Shown: positions 4,503-13,601 of the stretch, one piece after another | How the letters are laid out: the number at the start of each line of letters is the position of its first letter | How positions within the stretch are numbered: the stretch's first letter is position 1 | NCBI GenBank assembly: GCA_021324355.1 | Contig: JAJPJD010000007.1 | Location: 1 to 64,000, forward strand | DNA length: 64,000 bases | Source of the DNA: Actinomycetota bacterium | GTDB lineage: Bacteria; Actinomycetota; Acidimicrobiia; Acidimicrobiales; RAAP-2 | Direction: 5' to 3' | The notes under the pieces: model-generated | What the model was told of the DNA's origin: nothing | The model's database searches: none | Seen by the model: only the letters and a program-made list of their open reading frames with translations | Translations under genes and position numbers: made by a program

Positions 4503-6662
4503 GTGAACGGGGGGAACGTGGCGGGCGGCACAAGCTTCATGGATACTTGCGGGTCAGTGAGTGCTCGGCGGGCCCTGCTCTTTGTCATCGTCGCACCGAT
4601 CATTGCGGGTTGCTGGGCCTTGGCTGCGCACCTCCTGCCGAAGGGCCTGCCAGTCGGCATTGTTGTCCAAGGGCTCATCTATGGCTCCTTCTACTCCCTC
4701 TCGGCGGTTGGCGTTGTCCTGATCTACAGGTCTAGCCGTGTGGTCAACTTCGCTCAGGCTCAGCTCGGTCTTCTGGGTGGAGTCATCACGATCCTGATGG
4801 CCGCCGGCCACGGCTGGAACTTCTACTTCTCAGTCGCTCTGGGCCTGCTGATTGCAGGTCTCACCGGTGTCCTGACCCATTTGCTCGTGATCCACCGCCT
4901 GCGTCGCAGCTCACGTCTCCTTGTCGCAGTGGCGACAATCGGCTTGGCTCAAGCTCTAAGCGGTGCTGAAGGATTCCTGCCTTCGATCCTTTGCAGCAGT
5001 CCTTTTGGGACTTGCTCGATCAGTCGTGGCTTCAACTTTCCGCTCGCGGTCAGGTTCAGCATCCCTCCTGTGATTTTCAACGGGGTCGACGTCATGGCAC
5101 TCCTGACGGCAGCCGGTGTGCTGCTGATCATGTGGGCGACGCTTCGGTTCACGTACTGGGGACAAGCCATGCGGGGGACGTCTGAAAATCGGGACCGCGC
5201 AATCCTGCTTGGAATTCGAGTCCTCTGGATCGACGTAACGGTCTGGGTCGTTGCTGCGTTGCTCTCCGCCGTTACCCTGATTCTCTACAGCGGGGTTTAC
5301 GGCTATGCGCCCCTCGCTGGGGCGCCGTTTTCCGGCGACGACATCTTGCTGCGGGTCCTGGCTGCCGCAGTGATCGGAGGGATGGAGAGTCTTCCCCGTA
5401 CGGTTCTGGCCGCACTCGTCTTGGGCGTCTACGACGCCGGGGCCACGTGGACCTCAGCAAACGTTCCCTTTGTTGACGCAACCCTGGTCGTCATTATCGT
5501 GGTCGCGCTCCTCCTTCAGCACCGCCGGTTCACCCGATCCGGAGGTGATCTCGGCATCAACTGGCTGACGGTCCGTCAGTTCAAGCCGGTCCCGGTAACG
5601 ATTCGATGCCTGCCAGAGGTCCGCTGGCTTCGACGTCTTGCTTTTGTGGCGCTGACGGCCCTCCTCCTTGCGGCCCCACACCTGCTCCCGGTTGGCCAGG
5701 TCTTCCTTCTCGCCCCCCTCTTGATCTACGGGATCGTCGGCCTCTCGCTGGTGGTCCTGTCAGGTTGGTCCGGACAGATCTCTCTCGGGCAGTTCGCGCT
5801 GGCTGGTCTTGGCGGCGCCGTGACCGGCTACCTCTATGCCTTTCACTCTTGGAACTGGCTCGCGGCAACGGTGATAGGGGTTGGGGCCGCTGCAGGAGCA
5901 GCCTTCCTCATTGGTCTACCTGCCTTGCGCATTCGCGGGCCGTTCCTCGCCGTCACGACCCTGGCTTTCGCGGTAACCATGTACGAGTACGTTCTGCCGC
6001 CCCAGTGGTTCCCATCATTCGTGGCGCAGTCGTTCAATCGCCCGACGGTATTCGGTCACCATCTGTTCGGCTCCGATGCCGGCATGTACTACCTCTGCCT
6101 GGCGGTGTTCGTTCTCGTCGCCGCGTCACTGTGGTCCCTCCGGCGCAGCGCGGCCGGCCGCTCCCTGATCGCAACCCGTGACAACGAAGTCGCAGCCGAG
6201 GCGATGGCTCTGCCGACGACTCGCATTCGGTTGTCCGCCTTTGTGCTCTCAGGTGCCATCGCCGGCCTGGCCGGATCGCTGTTCGTTATGGACCAGGGTG
6301 GGGTCTTCTACGGGTCATTCAGCGCCGATACCAGCGTGCTGCTCTTCACCATGGCCGTAGTTGGCGGACTCGGATCGTTGTTTGGTGTCTGTCTCGGGGT
6401 GGCGTACATCTGGGGGGTCCAGTACCTGCTCCCACCGACGTGGGGTGTGCTGGTGAGCGGGTTGGGGATCGTCGTGCTGCTCTTGTTCCTCCCCGAGGGC
6501 CTTGCCGGCCTGGCCAACATGGCCCGTGATGGCCTGCTCCGCCGGCTTGCGGCCCACCGGGGTCTCGACGTTCCCGAACTCGCGCCAGCTGCACCGAGGC
6601 CGGAGCGGCCGGAGGACGTTGCGGTGTTGGCACCGGCTTCCGTGGAGCGGTTGATCGGATGA
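4503..6662 (+). CDS. fused branched-chain amino acid-type ABC permease (LivH-LivM)
   Basis: This 719-residue membrane protein joins both permease subunits of a Liv-type (HAAT family) importer. Residues about 50-345 are LivH-like, with VLIYRSSRVVNFAQAQLGLL near the start. Residues about 375-680 are LivM-like, with GWSGQISLGQFALAGLGGAV and the EAA-type loop AAEAMALPTTRIRLSAFVLS. Many hydrophobic helices are visible in both halves. The start is uncertain: GTG 4503, GTG 4518 and ATG 4539 are all in frame and none has an ideal ribosome-binding site. It overlaps the next gene by 4 nt (ATGA), so the two fused proteins are translationally coupled. No periplasmic binding protein lies nearby. The substrate could be amino acids, urea or amides; the sequence does not say. 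Confidence 0.85.
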   Translation: MNGGNVAGGTSFMDTCGSVSARRALLFVIVAPIIAGCWALAAHLLPKGLPVGIVVQGLIYGSFYSLSAVGVVLIYRSSRVVNFAQAQLGLLGGVITILMAAGHGWNFYFSVALGLLIAGLTGVLTHLLVIHRLRRSSRLLVAVATIGLAQALSGAEGFLPSILCSSPFGTCSISRGFNFPLAVRFSIPPVIFNGVDVMALLTAAGVLLIMWATLRFTYWGQAMRGTSENRDRAILLGIRVLWIDVTVWVVAALLSAVTLILYSGVYGYAPLAGAPFSGDDILLRVLAAAVIGGMESLPRTVLAALVLGVYDAGATWTSANVPFVDATLVVIIVVALLLQHRRFTRSGGDLGINWLTVRQFKPVPVTIRCLPEVRWLRRLAFVALTALLLAAPHLLPVGQVFLLAPLLIYGIVGLSLVVLSGWSGQISLGQFALAGLGGAVTGYLYAFHSWNWLAATVIGVGAAAGAAFLIGLPALRIRGPFLAVTTLAFAVTMYEYVLPPQWFPSFVAQSFNRPTVFGHHLFGSDAGMYYLCLAVFVLVAASLWSLRRSAAGRSLIATRDNEVAAEAMALPTTRIRLSAFVLSGAIAGLAGSLFVMDQGGVFYGSFSADTSVLLFTMAVVGGLGSLFGVCLGVAYIWGVQYLLPPTWGVLVSGLGIVVLLLFLPEGLAGLANMARDGLLRRLAAHRGLDVPELAPAAPRPERPEDVAVLAPASVERLIG

Positions 6663-9600
6663 GCGAGCCATCGATGCCCGCAACGGCTTCTGTCCCAGAG
6701 CGAGACACGGTTGGCTCTGGTGACGGTACCCGTGTGGTCGAGGAGGCGTCGGGCCGAGCCCCACTGAGCTGGCTGGATCCTCGACGAATTACCTGGCCGG
6801 CCTCGGTGGTGCCCCTGCTCGTTCTGGCCGGCCTCGGTGCCATGACGCAGTTCGAGGGATCGGCGTTCAACGTGTTGATACCCGACATTCGCCAGACGTT
6901 CCATCTCAGCTTGGCCGGACTGACCACCATCACCGCTGTTACCGCGCCCATCGGGCTGCTATTGGACGTCCCCATCGCCTACGCCGGCGATCGCGTTCGC
7001 CGGATGCGGATGACGTCGTTGGGGTTCCTCGTCTTCATGGCATTCTCGGCCTTGACCGGATTGGGCGGTGTGCTGGTCAGCCTCACTGTGCTGTACGTCG
7101 CCCGGCTTGGCGTGTCGGTAGGTAGCGCGTTCCAGTCGACTGGGTCCAGCCTCATGGCCGACTTCTTTCCAGTCGACGTCCGGGCCAAGGCATACTTTGC
7201 GCGAGCGACGGTCGCTGCCATCTTCGCATCGGTCGCGCCAGCCACCGTTGGTCTGCTCGAACTCCGCCTCAGCTGGGAGGCGCCCTTCTTCATTTTTGCG
7301 ATTCCAACCGTGTTCTTTGTCGCGCTCGGATTGACGATCAAAGAGCCGGTACGTGGGCGCTACGAGCGGGAGATGATGGGCGCCGACCCGGCCACCGCGG
7401 TCGTTGCTGACGAGCCGGCCAGCGTCGCGGAGACCTTCCGGACGCTCTTCGCAAACCCGTCCATGCGTCGGCTCTACTACTCGCTGCCTTTCCTCACGGT
7501 CGCGGCAATCGGGATCGGGCAGTTCACCAGCCTTTTCTATCAAGAGATCCTTCACCTCGATGCCGCTGCCCGGGGGTTCGTGATCGCCCTCACCGAACCC
7601 GGCGCTGTGGTCGGCCTCGTGTTCGGAGGCACCGTCTTGCGTCCGTTGGTCGAGCGCCGCCCCGGCACAGTGGTCAGGCTCATCGCGGTCAACGCCACGC
7701 TGGCTGGAGGCCTGTTGGTGGGCTTCGCCCTGTCTCCGAACGTGGTGGTTGCCGCGATCTTCCAGTTCCTGCTGGCGGCCGTGCTCGCCACGATCGTCCC
7801 TGGGGTGACCACGGTGCTGTCGCTGGTGATCCCGCCCCGCATGCGCACGCTGGGCTTTGCCACCGCGTCGATCTGGTTCCTGGTCGGGATCCCCGTGCTT
7901 CCGGTGGTAGGGGTCATCGGTGACGACTTCGGCCTACGAACGGGGATCGTGGTGTTCGTCCCGGTGTTCGTGCTGGGCAGCTACATCCTTGCCTCTGGGG
8001 GCGCCTACATCGCGAGAGACATCGACAAGGTCCGGGTGTCCACCCTTGCCCGGGCCGAGATTCGCCAAGCCCGCCTCGAGGGCCGGAGCGATCTGCTCAT
8101 GGTTCGGCGATTGCGCGCCGGCTACGGCCAGCTCGATGTCCTGTTCGACGTCGACCTCGACGTTGAGGACGGCGAGATGCTGGCTCTGTTGGGCAGCAAC
8201 GGTGCTGGCAAGTCGACGCTCCTGCGCACGATCTCGGCATTGCTGGTCCCCACGGCCGGCACCGTCATGTTCGACGGGATCGACATCACGAGCGCGGACC
8301 CCCGCCGAGTGGTGGAGATGGGGGTCGTGCATGTTCCAGGTGGGCGGGGGATCTTCCCTGGCTTGACGGTGGCCGAGAACCTCCACCTGGCTTTGGGTCC
8401 AAGCCGCCGCCGGCGCTCCGAGGGCGCGAGCCCCGCCGGCGTCTCCTCGGTCGACGAGGCGCTCGAGCTCTTCCCGCCGCTGCGTCAGCGCCTGCGCACC
8501 GCGGCCGGTGAGCTCTCGGGAGGTGAGCAACAGATGCTCAGCCTCGCCCAGGCCTTCCTGTTCGAACCCCGCCTTTTGTTGATCGACGAGCTCTCCTTGG
8601 GCCTGGCCCCGTCGGTGGTTTCCCAGCTCATCGAGCGGGTGCGAGCAGTCCATCGAGCCGGCGCGGCGGTGGTGCTGGTCGACCAGTCGCTCTCGACCGC
8701 GATGGCCGTGGCCGAGCGGTGCGCGTTTATGGAGCGCGGGCAAGTCCTGTTCTGTGGACCGACGTCCGAGCTCGTCGAGCGCGGCGATCTGGCCCGGGCC
8801 GTCTTCCTCTCCGGCTTCGCCGATCGGCCCCGGTCGGCGGTCCTCGACGACGGGGCCGCACCGCCCGAGACCCGGCCCCGGTCAGAGCCGGTGCTGCGGG
8901 CCTCGGGGCTGACCAAGACCTACGGCGGCGTGCGGGTGCTGAGCGGGGTGGACGTCGATTTGGCAGACGGTGAGGTCGTGGGGGTCATCGGACCGAATGG
9001 CGACGGGAAGACCACCCTGCTCGACCTGCTCACCGGCGCCCAGCAAGCCGACTCGGGCCAGGTGCTGCTGGACGGCCACGACGTGACCGATTGGTCGATG
9101 CACCGCCGGGCGGCGGCCGGAATCGCTCGCAGCTTCCAGGAACCGCGCTTGTGGCCGGGGTTGACGGTCGACGAGATCCTGGCCCTCGGGGTCGCTCGTC
9201 GCCACGGCGGGTTCAAGGTGGCCGGCGCGCTCCTGGGCCTGCCGGCCACGCGCAGACGGGAACGAGCCATCCGTGCCGAGGTGGACGAGATCGTCGAGCT
9301 CCTCCACCTCGAACCGTTCCGGCTCAAATTCCCGACCGAGCTCTCGACGGGAACCCGGCGGATCGTCGAACTGGCCACCGTGGTTGCCCAGCGGCCGCGG
9401 CTGCTGTTGCTGGACGAGCCGACCGTCGGGATCGCCCAGCGGGAGACCGAGCCCCTGGCTGCGTTGCTCCGCGAGGTGAGAGCCGTGCTCGGCTGCGCCA
9501 TGCTCGTGATCGAGCACGACATGGCCTTCCTGAGCGGGCTGGCCGACCGGCTCGTGGCGATGGATGCCGGCGAGGTGATCGCACAAGGTTCACCGCAGCA

Positions 9601-9673
9601 GGTCCTCGGGTCGGACCAGGTGATGCGTTCCTACCTGGGCCTGGATCCGCCTATTGTGCGCGCCGGCCAGTGA
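6659..9673 (+). CDS. triple fusion: MFS transporter - LivF ATPase - LivG ATPase
   Basis: This is a 1004-residue single frame. Residues about 35-450 are a 12-helix MFS domain (FNVLIPDIRQTF; VPIAYAGDRVRRMRM, the MFS loop 2-3 motif). Residues about 477-715 are a LivF-like ABC ATPase with Walker A GSNGAGKST, signature LSGGEQQ and Walker B LLLIDELSLGLAP. Residues about 744-995 are a LivG-like ATPase with Walker A GPNGDGKTT, a degenerate signature LSTGTRR, Walker B LLLLDEPTVG and H-loop VIEHDM. The two ATPases would power the upstream LivH-LivM permease; the role of the MFS domain is unknown. The frame is continuous with no sign of error at the joins. Its stop is only 3 nt from the stop of the convergent citrate synthase gene. 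Confidence 0.85.
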   Translation: MSEPSMPATASVPERDTVGSGDGTRVVEEASGRAPLSWLDPRRITWPASVVPLLVLAGLGAMTQFEGSAFNVLIPDIRQTFHLSLAGLTTITAVTAPIGLLLDVPIAYAGDRVRRMRMTSLGFLVFMAFSALTGLGGVLVSLTVLYVARLGVSVGSAFQSTGSSLMADFFPVDVRAKAYFARATVAAIFASVAPATVGLLELRLSWEAPFFIFAIPTVFFVALGLTIKEPVRGRYEREMMGADPATAVVADEPASVAETFRTLFANPSMRRLYYSLPFLTVAAIGIGQFTSLFYQEILHLDAAARGFVIALTEPGAVVGLVFGGTVLRPLVERRPGTVVRLIAVNATLAGGLLVGFALSPNVVVAAIFQFLLAAVLATIVPGVTTVLSLVIPPRMRTLGFATASIWFLVGIPVLPVVGVIGDDFGLRTGIVVFVPVFVLGSYILASGGAYIARDIDKVRVSTLARAEIRQARLEGRSDLLMVRRLRAGYGQLDVLFDVDLDVEDGEMLALLGSNGAGKSTLLRTISALLVPTAGTVMFDGIDITSADPRRVVEMGVVHVPGGRGIFPGLTVAENLHLALGPSRRRRSEGASPAGVSSVDEALELFPPLRQRLRTAAGELSGGEQQMLSLAQAFLFEPRLLLIDELSLGLAPSVVSQLIERVRAVHRAGAAVVLVDQSLSTAMAVAERCAFMERGQVLFCGPTSELVERGDLARAVFLSGFADRPRSAVLDDGAAPPETRPRSEPVLRASGLTKTYGGVRVLSGVDVDLADGEVVGVIGPNGDGKTTLLDLLTGAQQADSGQVLLDGHDVTDWSMHRRAAAGIARSFQEPRLWPGLTVDEILALGVARRHGGFKVAGALLGLPATRRRERAIRAEVDEIVELLHLEPFRLKFPTELSTGTRRIVELATVVAQRPRLLLLDEPTVGIAQRETEPLAALLREVRAVLGCAMLVIEHDMAFLSGLADRLVAMDAGEVIAQGSPQQVLGSDQVMRSYLGLDPPIVRAGQ

Positions 9674-9676
9674 TGC

Positions 9677-11209
9677 TCAGAGGTCGGGCACCGGCTGGGG
9701 AGGGGGCGGGCCCACGTAGCGAGCCGAGGGCCGAAACAGCCGGTTGTCGGCCATCTGCTCGAGGACGTGGACAGTCCAGCCCACCGTGCGGGCCACGGCG
9801 AAGGTGGGGGTGAACAGGTCGCGCGGGATGCCGCAGCGGTCCATCACGACCCCGGCGTAGAACTCCAGGTTCGTGTGCAGCTCGCGCCCTGGCTTCAGCT
9901 CGTCGAGGACCCGCAGTGCGACTTGCTCGACTTCGACCGCCAGGTCGACCAGCGGACCGCCCAGGCGTTGGGCGACCGTTCTGAGGAAGGCTGCGCGCGG
10001 ATCCTCGGTCCGGTAGATGCGGTGGCCGAAGCCCATGAGGCGCTGGTCGCTGGCGACGGCCGAGCGGAGCCAGGCTTCGGCGTTTTCGACCCGGCCGATC
10101 GCGTCGAGCATGTCGAGGGCTCGGCTTGGTGCGCCTCCATGGAGCGGGCCCGAGAGCGCCCCGATCGCTCCGCAGATCGCGGAGGCCAGATCAGCCTGGG
10201 TCGAGCTGATCACCCGAGCGGTGAAGGTCGAGGCGTTGAAGCCATGGTCGGTCGCGATGATCAGGTACTGATCGAGGGCTCGAGCCTGCTCGGGGTCAGG
10301 TTCGGTGCCGCTCAGCATCCATAGGTAGTTCGCGGCCAGCGGCAGGTCCGACCGCGGCTCGACCACCTGGAGCCCTCGGGCCAGGCGGTAGGTGGATGCC
10401 AGAAGGACCGGCACTGCGGCGCCCAACCCGATCGCGTCGGCCCGCGCCGTGGCCTGGTCGATGTCCGACAGCGGCTGCAAGGCGCGGTGTGCTCCGAGCA
10501 GCGAGATCCCGGTCCGCAGGACTTCGAGAGGGCTTCCGGCCGACGCGACGGTCGCCAAGACGTGGCGGAAGCTCTCGGGGAGCGTCGCGTGCGCGTGGAG
10601 CTCGTCGAGGAACTCCCGTCTGCGGGCGAGGTCGGGGAGCTCGCCGAAGAGGAGGAGGTGCCAGACGTCCTCGAACTGGCGCGACGCGGCGAGATCGACC
10701 GCCGAGTACTGGCGGTAGTGGTAGAAGCCTTCGTGTCCCCGGACGTCTCCGACGGCAGTGGTCGCCACGATCACCCCCTCGAGGCCCCGGGGCGCCTCCA
10801 GGGAGGCGTCGCCAGCCGTCAGGCTGGCCGCGCCCATGAGGTTCCGCATCGACACCACGCCGACCAAGTTCCCATCCTCGACCACCGGCAAGTGCCGGTA
10901 GCGGTGGTGGCGCAAGCTGGCCCAGGCAGTACCGGCTGGTTCCTCGGGGCCGAGGACATCGGGGTTGGCAGTCATCCAGGCCCGCACCGGTTCGGTGTTC
11001 GGGTCGGAGCCGCCGGCCGCGGCCCGCAGCAGATCCCGTTCGGTCAGGATCCCCGCGACCTTGCCCTCCTCCACCACGACCACCGACCCGATGTCGTGAT
11101 GCTGCATCAGCCCGGCCGCCTCGCCCAGGCTCGTGTTTTCGGCGCAGGTGACGGCCGGTGACGACATCAGGTCACCGACGGTGAGGGCGCTGACCGGGTG
11201 CTGAACCAT
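9677..11209 (-). CDS. citrate/2-methylcitrate synthase-like protein with N-terminal CBS domain pair
   Basis: The protein is 510 residues. An N-terminal pair of CBS domains (about 5-125; VGDLMSSPAVTC, VAGILTERDLL, VRAWMTANPDV) probably binds adenine nucleotides. A citrate synthase domain follows. Catalytic motifs are GPLHGGAPSRAL (His), MGFGHRIY (His) and HTNLEFYAGVVMD, where Glu stands in the place of the usual catalytic Asp. The reaction would be condensation of acetyl- or propionyl-CoA with oxaloacetate, gated by nucleotide binding. ATG 11209 is chosen because the frame further upstream loses similarity and overlaps the divergent promoter. A possible weak -10 (GACAAT) lies 6 nt upstream of the start. 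Substrate choice cannot be read from sequence. Confidence 0.85.
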   Translation of the reverse strand: MVQHPVSALTVGDLMSSPAVTCAENTSLGEAAGLMQHHDIGSVVVVEEGKVAGILTERDLLRAAAGGSDPNTEPVRAWMTANPDVLGPEEPAGTAWASLRHHRYRHLPVVEDGNLVGVVSMRNLMGAASLTAGDASLEAPRGLEGVIVATTAVGDVRGHEGFYHYRQYSAVDLAASRQFEDVWHLLLFGELPDLARRREFLDELHAHATLPESFRHVLATVASAGSPLEVLRTGISLLGAHRALQPLSDIDQATARADAIGLGAAVPVLLASTYRLARGLQVVEPRSDLPLAANYLWMLSGTEPDPEQARALDQYLIIATDHGFNASTFTARVISSTQADLASAICGAIGALSGPLHGGAPSRALDMLDAIGRVENAEAWLRSAVASDQRLMGFGHRIYRTEDPRAAFLRTVAQRLGGPLVDLAVEVEQVALRVLDELKPGRELHTNLEFYAGVVMDRCGIPRDLFTPTFAVARTVGWTVHVLEQMADNRLFRPSARYVGPPPPQPVPDL

Positions 11210-11237
11210 GACCCCATTGTCCCTGGCCAGCAGGGAG

Positions 11238-11267
11238 TTGTAAACATTGATCAAGTCAATGTAAGGT
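11238..11267 (+). promoter_or_regulatory. MerR-like promoter/operator for the HTH-citrate synthase
   Basis: A TTGTAA -35-like element (11238-11243) and a TAAGGT -10-like element (11262-11267) are separated by 18 nt. The spacer is occupied by an inverted repeat, ACATTGA-tcaag-TCAATGT (11244-11262). A dyad filling an elongated spacer is the classical MerR-family arrangement. The GTG start follows the -10 by 5 nt. This is an AT-rich island in otherwise GC-rich DNA. Confidence 0.6.
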
Positions 11268-11272
11268 CCGGT

Positions 11273-12436
11273 GTGGTCGGGTTGGTCACCAGTGAGGAGG
11301 CGGCGCGCCGGTTGGGGATCAAGCTCACGACCCTTTACGCCTACGTCAGCCGCGGTCTGCTGGTCCCCCATCGCGGCCCGGACCGTCGCAGCCTCTTCGA
11401 GGTCGAGGACATCGAGGCCCTGGCGAGCCGGCGGGGGTCGACCGCACCGCGGGAGGCCCGGTTGGCCACCGTCACCACCGCCATCACCGAGATCCGGCCG
11501 GAGGGGCCCCGCTACCGGGGAGTGCCGGTCGCCCAGCTGGCCCGCACCGAATCGTTCGAACGGGTCGCCGAGCTGCTGTGGCAGCAGGCCCCGGGGGTTT
11601 GGGAGCCAGTCTCGATCGGTCCGGCGCCGATGGCTCGCGCCGGGGACCGACTCCGTTGGGCGGTGGTCATGTGCGGGTGCGCCGACCCGCTTCGAGCGGA
11701 CCGACGCCCGGTCGCGGTCGTGCGTGCCGCCCGGACGGTCATCGCCACCATGGTCGAGGTCCTGGACCGCGGGCCGGGAGAAGGATCGATCGCCGAGCGC
11801 CTCGCCGTCGCGCTCGCCCCGGAACCCCGACCGGCGGTGACCGAGGCGATCCGGGCGGCTCTGGTGCTGCTGGCCGACCACGAGCTGGCCACCTCGACCC
11901 TGGCGGTGCGGACGGCGGCGTCAACCAGGTCCGACCTCTATGGAGCGCTGCTCGCCGGCCTGGGGGCCTCGGGAGGGCCCCTCCATGCCGGGGCGAGCCG
12001 GGCTGCGCACCTGGTGCTCGAGGACGCCGAGCGCCGCGGCGCGCCACCCGCGCTCGACAGAGCCCTGGGGTGGCGCCCGCCGCTCGCCGGCTTCGGGCAC
12101 GGGGTCTACGCCGCCGATCCGCGCTTCGAGGAGCTGTGGTCCTTCGTCCAACGCGTCAGCACCGGGCGGGTTGAAGTCGTGAGCGCCCTGCTCGCGCTGG
12201 CGACCGAGCGAGGGCTGCCCCCGCCAAACGTGGATCTCGGCCTCGCTGCGTTGAGCTTCGTGTCGGGCATGGACGCCGAGAGTGGCTCGGTGCTGTTCGA
12301 GGTGGCACGGACGGCCGGGTGGGTTGCCCACTACCTCGAGGAGCTTGCCGAGGCTCCGCTGCGCTACCGGGCCCGGGCGATCTATGCGACCCCCCGCCGG
12401 CTCGGATCATCCCCGGCCCCATCGCCCCAGGGCTAG
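11273..12436 (+). CDS. citrate synthase family protein with N-terminal MerR-type HTH domain
   Basis: The protein is 387 residues. Residues 1-55 form a MerR-like winged HTH (TSEEAARRLGIKLTTLYAYV followed by SRGLLVPHRGPDRRSLFEVE). The rest is a shortened citrate synthase fold. Catalytic positions remain: His in GPLHAGASRA, His in GFGHGVY and Asp in PPNVDLGLAAL. The second motif lacks the usual Arg/Lys after His, and the first has AGA for GGA. GTG 11273 is preferred because the frame upstream runs through the promoter and dyad. It is divergent from the CBS-citrate synthase, so it may sense an acyl-CoA or oxaloacetate and regulate one or both promoters. It could instead be an ordinary enzyme with an oligomerising HTH. 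Confidence 0.8.
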   Translation: MVGLVTSEEAARRLGIKLTTLYAYVSRGLLVPHRGPDRRSLFEVEDIEALASRRGSTAPREARLATVTTAITEIRPEGPRYRGVPVAQLARTESFERVAELLWQQAPGVWEPVSIGPAPMARAGDRLRWAVVMCGCADPLRADRRPVAVVRAARTVIATMVEVLDRGPGEGSIAERLAVALAPEPRPAVTEAIRAALVLLADHELATSTLAVRTAASTRSDLYGALLAGLGASGGPLHAGASRAAHLVLEDAERRGAPPALDRALGWRPPLAGFGHGVYAADPRFEELWSFVQRVSTGRVEVVSALLALATERGLPPPNVDLGLAALSFVSGMDAESGSVLFEVARTAGWVAHYLEELAEAPLRYRARAIYATPRRLGSSPAPSPQG

Positions 12437-12439: not shown

Positions 12440-12446
12440 GAGGGTC

Positions 12447-12626
12447 GTGACCGACCACGCGAGCTTGCTGGCGAGCTGCGAGGCGATCCTCGACGAGGTC
12501 GAAGCGACGCTGGCCCGTATCGCCGATGGCACCTACGGGACGTGCCAGGTCTGCGGGGCGGAGATCCCCGACGAGCGGCTGGCCGCTGCGCCGACCACGA
12601 CGTCGTGTGGCCGGCACGACGGCTAG
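12447..12626 (+). CDS. small DksA/TraR-type zinc-ribbon protein
   Basis: This 59-residue protein starts VTDHASLLASCEAILDEVEA, a short helix like the coiled-coil end of DksA/TraR proteins. It is followed by the ribbon GTYGTCQVCGAEIPDERLAA and then TSCGRHD. DksA-type ribbons use four Cys; here the ligands visible are C-x-x-C and, 18 residues on, C-x-x-H, so His may replace the fourth Cys. It is much shorter than DksA (about 150) and lacks the long coiled coil that enters the RNA polymerase secondary channel. It ends 7 nt from the stop of sodN (convergent). Confidence 0.7.
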   Translation: MTDHASLLASCEAILDEVEATLARIADGTYGTCQVCGAEIPDERLAAAPTTTSCGRHDG

Positions 12627-12633
12627 CGCCGAG

Positions 12634-13050
12634 CTACTTCTTCGTCGCCCAGAAGATCTCGGCGATCTGGTCGATCTCGTCGATGAGCCGCTGGCCGACC
12701 GCCTCGTCGTTGGTCTTCTTGGCCTCGCCGGCGGTCTTAGTGGCCTTCCAGAAGAGCTCGTGGAGCTGGGGATGGGCTTCGAGGTGCTCGGGCTTGAAAT
12801 AGTCGGTCCACAGGACCCAGAGGTGGTGCTTCACCAGCTCGGCCCGCTCTTCTTTGATGGTGATCGCCCGCTGCTTGAAGTCGTGGTCGTCGGAGGCGTT
12901 GTGCTTCTCCTGGCAGGCCTTGACGGACTGAGCTTCGATCCGGGCCTGGGCCGGGTCGTAGACGCCGCAGGGCAGGTCGCAGTGCGCCGATGCGGCCGGC
13001 GGCGGGGCGATCCGGTCCAGCGTCGTGAGGATGCGGTCGATCAAGGACAT
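12634..13050 (-). CDS. sodN: nickel superoxide dismutase
   Basis: The 138-residue precursor of Ni-SOD converts superoxide to oxygen and hydrogen peroxide. The mature N-terminus HCDLPCGVYDPAQARIEAQS is the nickel hook: after cleavage behind Ala22, His1, Cys2 and Cys6 ligate the metal. The 22-residue leader (MSLIDRILTTLDRIAPPPAA plus SA) must be removed, matching the divergent SodX-type protease next door. The mature part is about 116 residues, as in the family. ATG 13050 is chosen because GGGAG lies 8 nt upstream; the longer frame has no family match. It is cytoplasmic and hexameric in known members. Confidence 0.97.
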   Translation of the reverse strand: MSLIDRILTTLDRIAPPPAASAHCDLPCGVYDPAQARIEAQSVKACQEKHNASDDHDFKQRAITIKEERAELVKHHLWVLWTDYFKPEHLEAHPQLHELFWKATKTAGEAKKTNDEAVGQRLIDEIDQIAEIFWATKK

Positions 13051-13145
13051 CTTCGGCTCCCTTCGCGCCATGGGGTGTTCGAGCGCGGGCCCACGCACGG
13101 GCGTAGGCCTGCGGTCGTCGATCCCACCTTACCCAGCCTCGACCC

Positions 13146-13601
13146 GTGAACGGACTGGCGATGCTTTGGGCCGGCCGGGGGCGGTCGTTCCTCTGGTTGG
13201 CTGCGGTGGGTCTCGGGCTCGCCACCGCCTCCCTGGCCTTCGGCCGGGTCGAGGTGGTGGGCGAGAGCATGGTGCCGACGTTGCGGCCAGGCGACCGGCT
13301 CGTGGTCCTGCGGTTCGGCCACCGATGGCTGCTCCGCCCTGGTGACCTGGTGACCGTGGCGCCGCCGCCCGGTCCGGGCCGGCCCCAGCGCCTGGTGAAG
13401 CGGTTGGTCGAGCGCGACGGGGCCACCGTGGCGGTGATCGGGGACAACGCGAGCGCCAGCACGGACAGCCGGAGCTTCGGCCGGCTCCCGCTGTCGGCCG
13501 TCACCGGCAAGGTGGTGTACCGCTACTGGCCTGCCAGCCGCGCCGGTGCGATCCGGCGAGGCCATCGAGCCAGGTCGGCCCAGGTAGGCTGGCCGCGGTG
13601 A
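13146..13601 (+). CDS. sodX: nickel-type SOD maturation protease, S26 signal-peptidase-like
   Basis: This 151-residue S26-family protease has a hydrophobic N-terminal helix (about 14-32, FLWLAAVGLGLATASLAF). The catalytic Ser sits in VVGESMVPTLRPGD and the Lys base in QRLVKRLVERDG, with a GDNASASTDSR box typical of signal-peptidase-like enzymes. Adjacency and divergence with sodN identify it as the processing enzyme that exposes the Ni-binding His. The start is GTG 13146; ATG 13161 is an in-frame alternative. The 95-nt gap to sodN must hold both promoters; I saw no clear Nur-type operator. Confidence 0.92.
   Translation: MNGLAMLWAGRGRSFLWLAAVGLGLATASLAFGRVEVVGESMVPTLRPGDRLVVLRFGHRWLLRPGDLVTVAPPPGPGRPQRLVKRLVERDGATVAVIGDNASASTDSRSFGRLPLSAVTGKVVYRYWPASRAGAIRRGHRARSAQVGWPR
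13585..13590 (+). promoter_or_regulatory. TAGGCT -10 element, leaderless type
   Basis: TAGGCT lies 7 nt before the GTG of the XRE regulator and inside the end of sodX. No Shine-Dalgarno is present at that start. Confidence 0.45.

Follow-up and report, generated by a model that had tools for sequence, protein, structure and literature searches.

A citrate synthase fold joined to a winged helix as a predicted regulator of its own divergent promoter

MocR/GabR regulators are built from a helix-turn-helix (HTH) domain fused to an aminotransferase fold, and PutA is a trigger enzyme. Among proteins related to citrate synthase (CS), SCO5831 of Streptomyces coelicolor is more abundant in phosphate proficiency (PMC8981147, PMC9739823), and Caulobacter CitC (CCNA_03758), a paralogue adjacent to CitB, fails to complement Escherichia coli gltA (PMC7083601). 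We found no description of an HTH-citrate synthase (HTH-CS) in the open-access literature; earlier work may exist. Here we analyze one such gene in a window of actinomycetotal DNA (the window is the whole stretch analyzed, 64,000 nucleotides). Based on comparison of sequences, we think it very likely that the product is a dedicated one-component regulator, in which a winged helix joined to a CS-fold sensor would bind one operator, probably repress both promoters there, and be released by a ligand.

The HTH-CS gene occupies positions 11273..12436 of the forward strand, starts with GTG, and encodes 387 amino acids. It had been predicted to specify a citrate synthase with an N-terminal MerR-type winged helix, and Pfam models for HTH_17, MerR_1, and Citrate_synt all match. 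The HTH_17/MerR-like winged-helix domain covers residues 5-54 (11285..11434, forward strand; HTH_17 E value, 1.1e-8); MerR_1 reaches 23.3 bits against a cut-off of 21.6, and HTH_17 scores higher. The citrate synthase domain covers residues 125-360 (11645..12352, forward strand; PF00285 E value, 1.1e-48). The predicted fold (pLDDT 78, from 9 sequences) matches methylcitrate synthase 3hwk with a TM score of 0.66-0.71, the HTH and linker being low-confidence parts of the model. A gene start at 11238, as first proposed, is rejected: there is no start codon at that position, which falls inside the operator described below, and GTG 11273 is the aligned start position in every close orthologue.

The HTH match (HTH_17) covers a short stretch, is of a general kind, and falls below the Pfam cut-off for some members of the family (e.g., L097); the HTH signature TLYAYVSRG is nearly invariant across the family. 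When compared with a sample of plain citrate synthases, the HTH-CS proteins group as a single clade (SH-aLRT, 100) that spans Actinomycetota, Pseudomonadota, and Deinococcota. Three proteins inside this clade that had been labeled CS (L030, L098, and L099) do carry the HTH, with a variant signature, and fail only the signature test. Fusion of the HTH to the enzyme fold has a single origin. The closest named relatives are metagenome-assembled Acidimicrobiaceae and Acidimicrobiales genomes. A short open reading frame after the HTH-CS gene (12446-12625, forward strand) resembles DksA/TraR zinc fingers in its CxxC...CxxH-like motif (TCQVCGAEI...SCGRH) and has no Pfam match. At 12634-13601, a nickel superoxide dismutase (NiSOD) gene on the minus strand (PF09055) has as its divergent neighbor a gene (13146-13601) for an S26 signal-peptidase-like protein, and the two may be paired for the maturation of NiSOD.

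As the original prediction stated, the HTH-CS gene faces a divergent CBS-CBS-citrate synthase gene (CBS-CS; 9677..11209, minus strand; 510 amino acids, with two CBS domains and a Citrate_synt match of 1.3e-115). This is the presumed second target, and the pair is conserved among relatives. Glu replaces the catalytic Asp375 in the window's CBS-CS (TNLEFYAG), as it does in Bacillus subtilis CitA (PDB 2c6x). Also in this part of the window is a 1,004-amino-acid open reading frame (6659-9673, forward strand) in which an MFS transporter domain is fused with two ABC ATPase domains. The second of these shows a C-terminal motif of branched-chain amino acid transporters, at a score below the cut-off. 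The gene preceding this reading frame (4503-6662) has two BPD_transp_2 permease stretches.

The dyad previously noted upstream of HTH-CS, ACATTGA-N5-TCAATGT, is real. It lies at 11244-11262 (ACATTGA-TCAAG-TCAATGT), inside the 63-bp gap shared with the CBS-CS gene, and is part of a larger, tripartite operator, TCAAY-VTTGAT-N-TCAAY. The conserved operator block, TTGTAAACATTGATCAAGTCAATGT, spans 11238..11262 and contains the elements TAAAC, ATTGAT, and TCAAT, the first element having drifted to TAAAC in the window group. The 25-nt family block TTGTAAACRTTGATCAAGTCAATRT matches here and nowhere else in the window at up to 3 mismatches (0 matches in 100 shuffles). The form found in the genus, TGTAAACRTTGATCAAGTCAATRT, is nearly unchanged while the intergenic flanks have diverged (orthologues are 54-68% identical in protein).

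Whether orthologues have the dyad upstream had been set beforehand as the refuting test, which the prediction clearly withstood. The tripartite operator (relaxed pattern) is present at 62 of the 68 distinct HTH-CS loci from Actinomycetota, Pseudomonadota, and Deinococcota, where each distinct protein contributes a single locus (the 69 rows contain the window twice) and the total includes three loci (L007, L057, and L097) at which the operator is 1.1-2.9 kb upstream and not beside the gene. By the same pattern, the operator is off by one letter at three loci (L024, L025, and L085), and no recognizable operator occurs at another three (L046, L053, and L056). A stricter dyad is found in 43 of 61 upstream regions, versus 0.17 in shuffles (maximum, 3). 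Close orthologues within these operator counts are not independent samples, and the loci that yielded the consensus are also those at which it was counted; an independent test comes from the genome-wide scans.

In more distant relatives, the loci share a 10-bp palindrome that is fixed and, at a clade-typical distance from it, a third element. Spacing within the TCAAY-VTTGA core is constant, and the distance from the second to the third element is 5, 7, 8, or 9 nt by clade: mostly 5 nt in Acidimicrobiia and in Streptomycetaceae-like genomes (family f52, so labeled partly from a named Embleya copy), 8 nt in the actinomycetotal family f45, and 9 nt in most Pseudomonadota. Loci L079, L083, and L105 have a second, overlapping operator on the other strand, and L097 and L098 have a second dyad about 165 bp away.

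Each of the seven genomes of the window genus (7/7) has the operator once at 0-1 mismatches, always at this promoter; the four other matches in these genomes each have 2-3 mismatches. The cross-clade pattern TCAAYRTTGATN{3,8}TCAAY, which in its exact form is not matched by the window's own operator, occurs in 19 of 24 Actinomycetota genomes with HTH-CS, once each and 18-110 bp before HTH-CS. It occurs in none of 53 control genomes, of which 51 are without HTH-CS and two have HTH-CS but no divergent CS. The operator is missing from two Streptomycetaceae-like genomes in which HTH-CS has no divergent CS. Among plasmids of Pseudomonadota and Deinococcus, 16 of 18 carry the operator, always at HTH-CS units, and in the two plasmids where the site occurs twice, the whole unit is duplicated. 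No wider regulon was seen, as nearly all exact sites in the scanned genomes and plasmids fall at HTH-CS units. We conclude that the element is, as far as comparison of genomes can indicate, a dedicated operator at the HTH-CS promoter and the divergent one. That it could be a promoter element of CS genes in general is rejected, since the operator is absent from CS genomes without HTH-CS and is kept where the partner is not a CS. The earlier proposal that an enzyme fold regulates its own divergent promoter is thus strongly supported by an operator that tracks HTH-CS across phyla and is almost absent elsewhere, whereas the MerR promoter architecture that came with it is not.

The partner gene varies, with the operator present in each case. 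It encodes a (methyl)citrate synthase in Agrobacterium, Ensifer, Chelatococcus, and Pararhizobium; a 2-hydroxyacid dehydrogenase, GudP, or an MFS transporter in Betaproteobacteria and Thioclava; a CoA transferase in Azospirillum and Ewingella; and a pyruvate carboxyltransferase in Deinococcus. DUF2332 is also among the non-CS partners. The suggested role at the citrate/methylcitrate node therefore fits most Actinomycetota and Rhizobiales copies, whose partner is a (methyl)citrate synthase, but it is too narrow for the family, because other copies face 2-hydroxyacid/D-glycerate dehydrogenases, transporters, or CoA transferases. Betaproteobacterial relatives (L079, L083, L105, L097, and L098) adjoin 2-hydroxyacid/D-glycerate dehydrogenase, SDR, FAH, or transporter genes.

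Where HTH-CS is late in an operon, the operator is at the operon start, beside the divergent gene (L097, L098, L007, and L057). HTH-CS comes fourth in the operon of Paraburkholderia sprentiae and Burkholderia cepacia, and the operator, about 2.9 kb away at the operon start, faces a D-glycerate dehydrogenase gene. At L007, acyl-CoA ligase-like and amidohydrolase genes lie between the operator and HTH-CS. By its position, then, the operator follows the operon and not the neighboring gene, which is the behavior of a regulator and its operator and not that of an enzyme gene.

The window protein retains the catalytic His, His, and Asp, as had been claimed (H238, H276, and D321), along with H203, R284, R346, and R366; A206 replaces the equivalent of Asn242 (pig numbering), a position next to the substrate. 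We take the roles of these active-site residues from general knowledge of pig citrate synthase. Across 62 HTH-CS members, the equivalents of H274, H320, D375, and Arg 329, 401, and 421 are nearly invariant, and that of Asn242 is Ala in 39 and Asn in only 10. With its catalytic residues kept, the family gives no support to decay into a dead enzyme. Because the site retains the catalytic triad and the three substrate arginines, it probably continues to bind the classic CS ligands.

Such near invariance is in favor of a working (methyl)citrate synthase that also regulates itself via its HTH, a bifunctional or trigger enzyme like PutA in which turnover or occupancy would set binding. We consider this somewhat unlikely. 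The residue at the Asn242 position is seldom that of the enzyme, and the best NCBIfam citrate synthase score is 119 bits versus a cut-off of 332, below every NCBIfam CS cut-off. The 2.45-Mb host genome encodes an ordinary, full citrate synthase elsewhere (C49) in addition to the partner CS, and several HTH-CS copies face genes unrelated to CS. The inability of Caulobacter CitC to replace gltA (PMC7083601) points the same way, CitC being compared here as the neighbor of CitB and not as an established member of HTH-CS. It is more doubtful still that HTH-CS is a widespread family that senses by catalysis, with a CS site that would condense or bind acyl-CoA and a 2-oxoacid and turnover or open/closed motion that would set operator binding; if it were, flux itself would be read out at the promoter.

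The likely -10 element of the HTH-CS promoter is TAAGGT (11262..11267, forward strand), 5 nt before the GTG, as judged from the TANNNT of orthologues. In 11 of 13 orthologous promoters this element falls between -11 and -13 relative to the start, and because it lies 5-7 nt before the start codon, a leaderless HTH-CS mRNA is suggested. Immediately upstream of it, the DNA is covered by the operator. For the divergent CBS-CS gene, the likely promoter, and the only sigma-70-like one found there by scanning, is TTTACA-N17-GACAAT (11216..11244, minus strand; TTTACA-N17-GANAAT in the window group), the -35 of which overlaps the operator block.

In the original prediction, the dyad filled an 18-nt spacer between -35 and -10 elements. 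HTH-CS would then be a classic MerR regulator that occupies an over-long spacer in its promoter and switches on transcription through untwisting of the DNA. The dyad does lie within TTGTAA-N18-TAAGGT in the window, and in 11 of 13 orthologues the dyad center falls between -20 and -25 relative to the start. However, the 18-nt spacing occurs in only 2 of 13 promoters, recurring solely in L021, and most have 22 nt, so the over-long-spacer mechanism is unsupported. The operator is also placed differently relative to the promoter in other clades: it is 65-97 bp before the HTH-CS start in Streptomycetaceae-like copies, and several Betaproteobacteria have a TATAAA-like -10 inside it. No MerR-type long coiled-coil helix and effector-binding domain was found in the protein, as the C-terminal part is the CS domain and the model is without such a helix. 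The TTGTAA is better read as the -35 of the divergent gene. With the MerR spacer not conserved, the classic mechanism is very unlikely, and repression by promoter overlap is likelier. We give hardly any credence to the idea that some other regulator binds the operator and that the HTH of HTH-CS is vestigial or serves something else: MtrA does bind a site between sco5831 and sco5832 in S. coelicolor (PMC12323332), but the MtrA-type site (TTGACTTAACTGTCCA) differs in sequence from the operator, which is near single-copy per genome, stays with HTH-CS when partners change, across phyla, and in duplications, and is missing from genomes that have no HTH-CS.

In the dedicated one-component regulator that we favor, the N-terminal winged helix would bind DNA and the CS fold would be the sensor. 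Since proteins of the citrate synthase fold normally form dimers, a pair of HTH heads could face the inverted repeat. HTH-CS would bind TCAAY-VTTGAT-N-TCAAY, which lies between the HTH-CS promoter and the promoter of the divergent gene (here CBS-CS), and, when bound, would most likely repress both by occlusion. Repression of both is the simplest model because binding would cover both promoters; for the divergent gene, activation by HTH-CS is an alternative. The sensor may bind acyl-CoA and/or an oxaloacetate-like 2-oxoacid, whereupon HTH-CS would be released or switched to activation. We infer three particulars of this model, namely binding of the operator by HTH-CS itself, whether control is negative or positive, and the identity of the ligand. 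The variable spacing of the elements (5/7/8/9 nt) counts against this model, as it is not simply explained by one rigid dimer.

Proteins annotated or modeled as citrate synthases in Streptomyces, Burkholderia, rhizobia, and other groups are probably regulators, and the CS fold would join the few enzyme folds known as sensors of transcription factors. The operator and its single target are closely defined and could yield a biosensor for acyl-CoA or 2-oxoacids.

HTH-CS has the fold, the catalytic His/His/Asp, and the oxaloacetate-binding Arg of citrate synthase and 2-methylcitrate synthase (PF00285; PDB 3hwk and 1a59), but it differs from them in its N-terminal HTH, in the loss of Asn242 in most members, in its sub-cut-off NCBIfam scores, and in a genetic context that is that of a divergent regulator. 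With the MerR family it shares an N-terminal winged helix of the MerR_1/HTH_17 type and a dyad operator near its own divergent promoter, whereas it lacks the coiled coil and effector domain as a dimer module and the conserved over-long spacer. The sco5831/sco5832 (citA3/citA4) locus of S. coelicolor is likewise a divergent pair of CS-like genes, but in the papers that we found the two are treated as citrate synthases and not as a regulator; judged from the site positions given in PMC12323332, -92 for sco5831 and -16 for sco5832, the former is probably the HTH-CS and the latter its partner. MocR/GabR and PutA-type proteins also place a DNA-binding head on an enzyme fold that acts as the sensor and regulate both themselves and a divergent metabolic gene; HTH-CS differs from these in using the citrate synthase fold and an HTH of another family.
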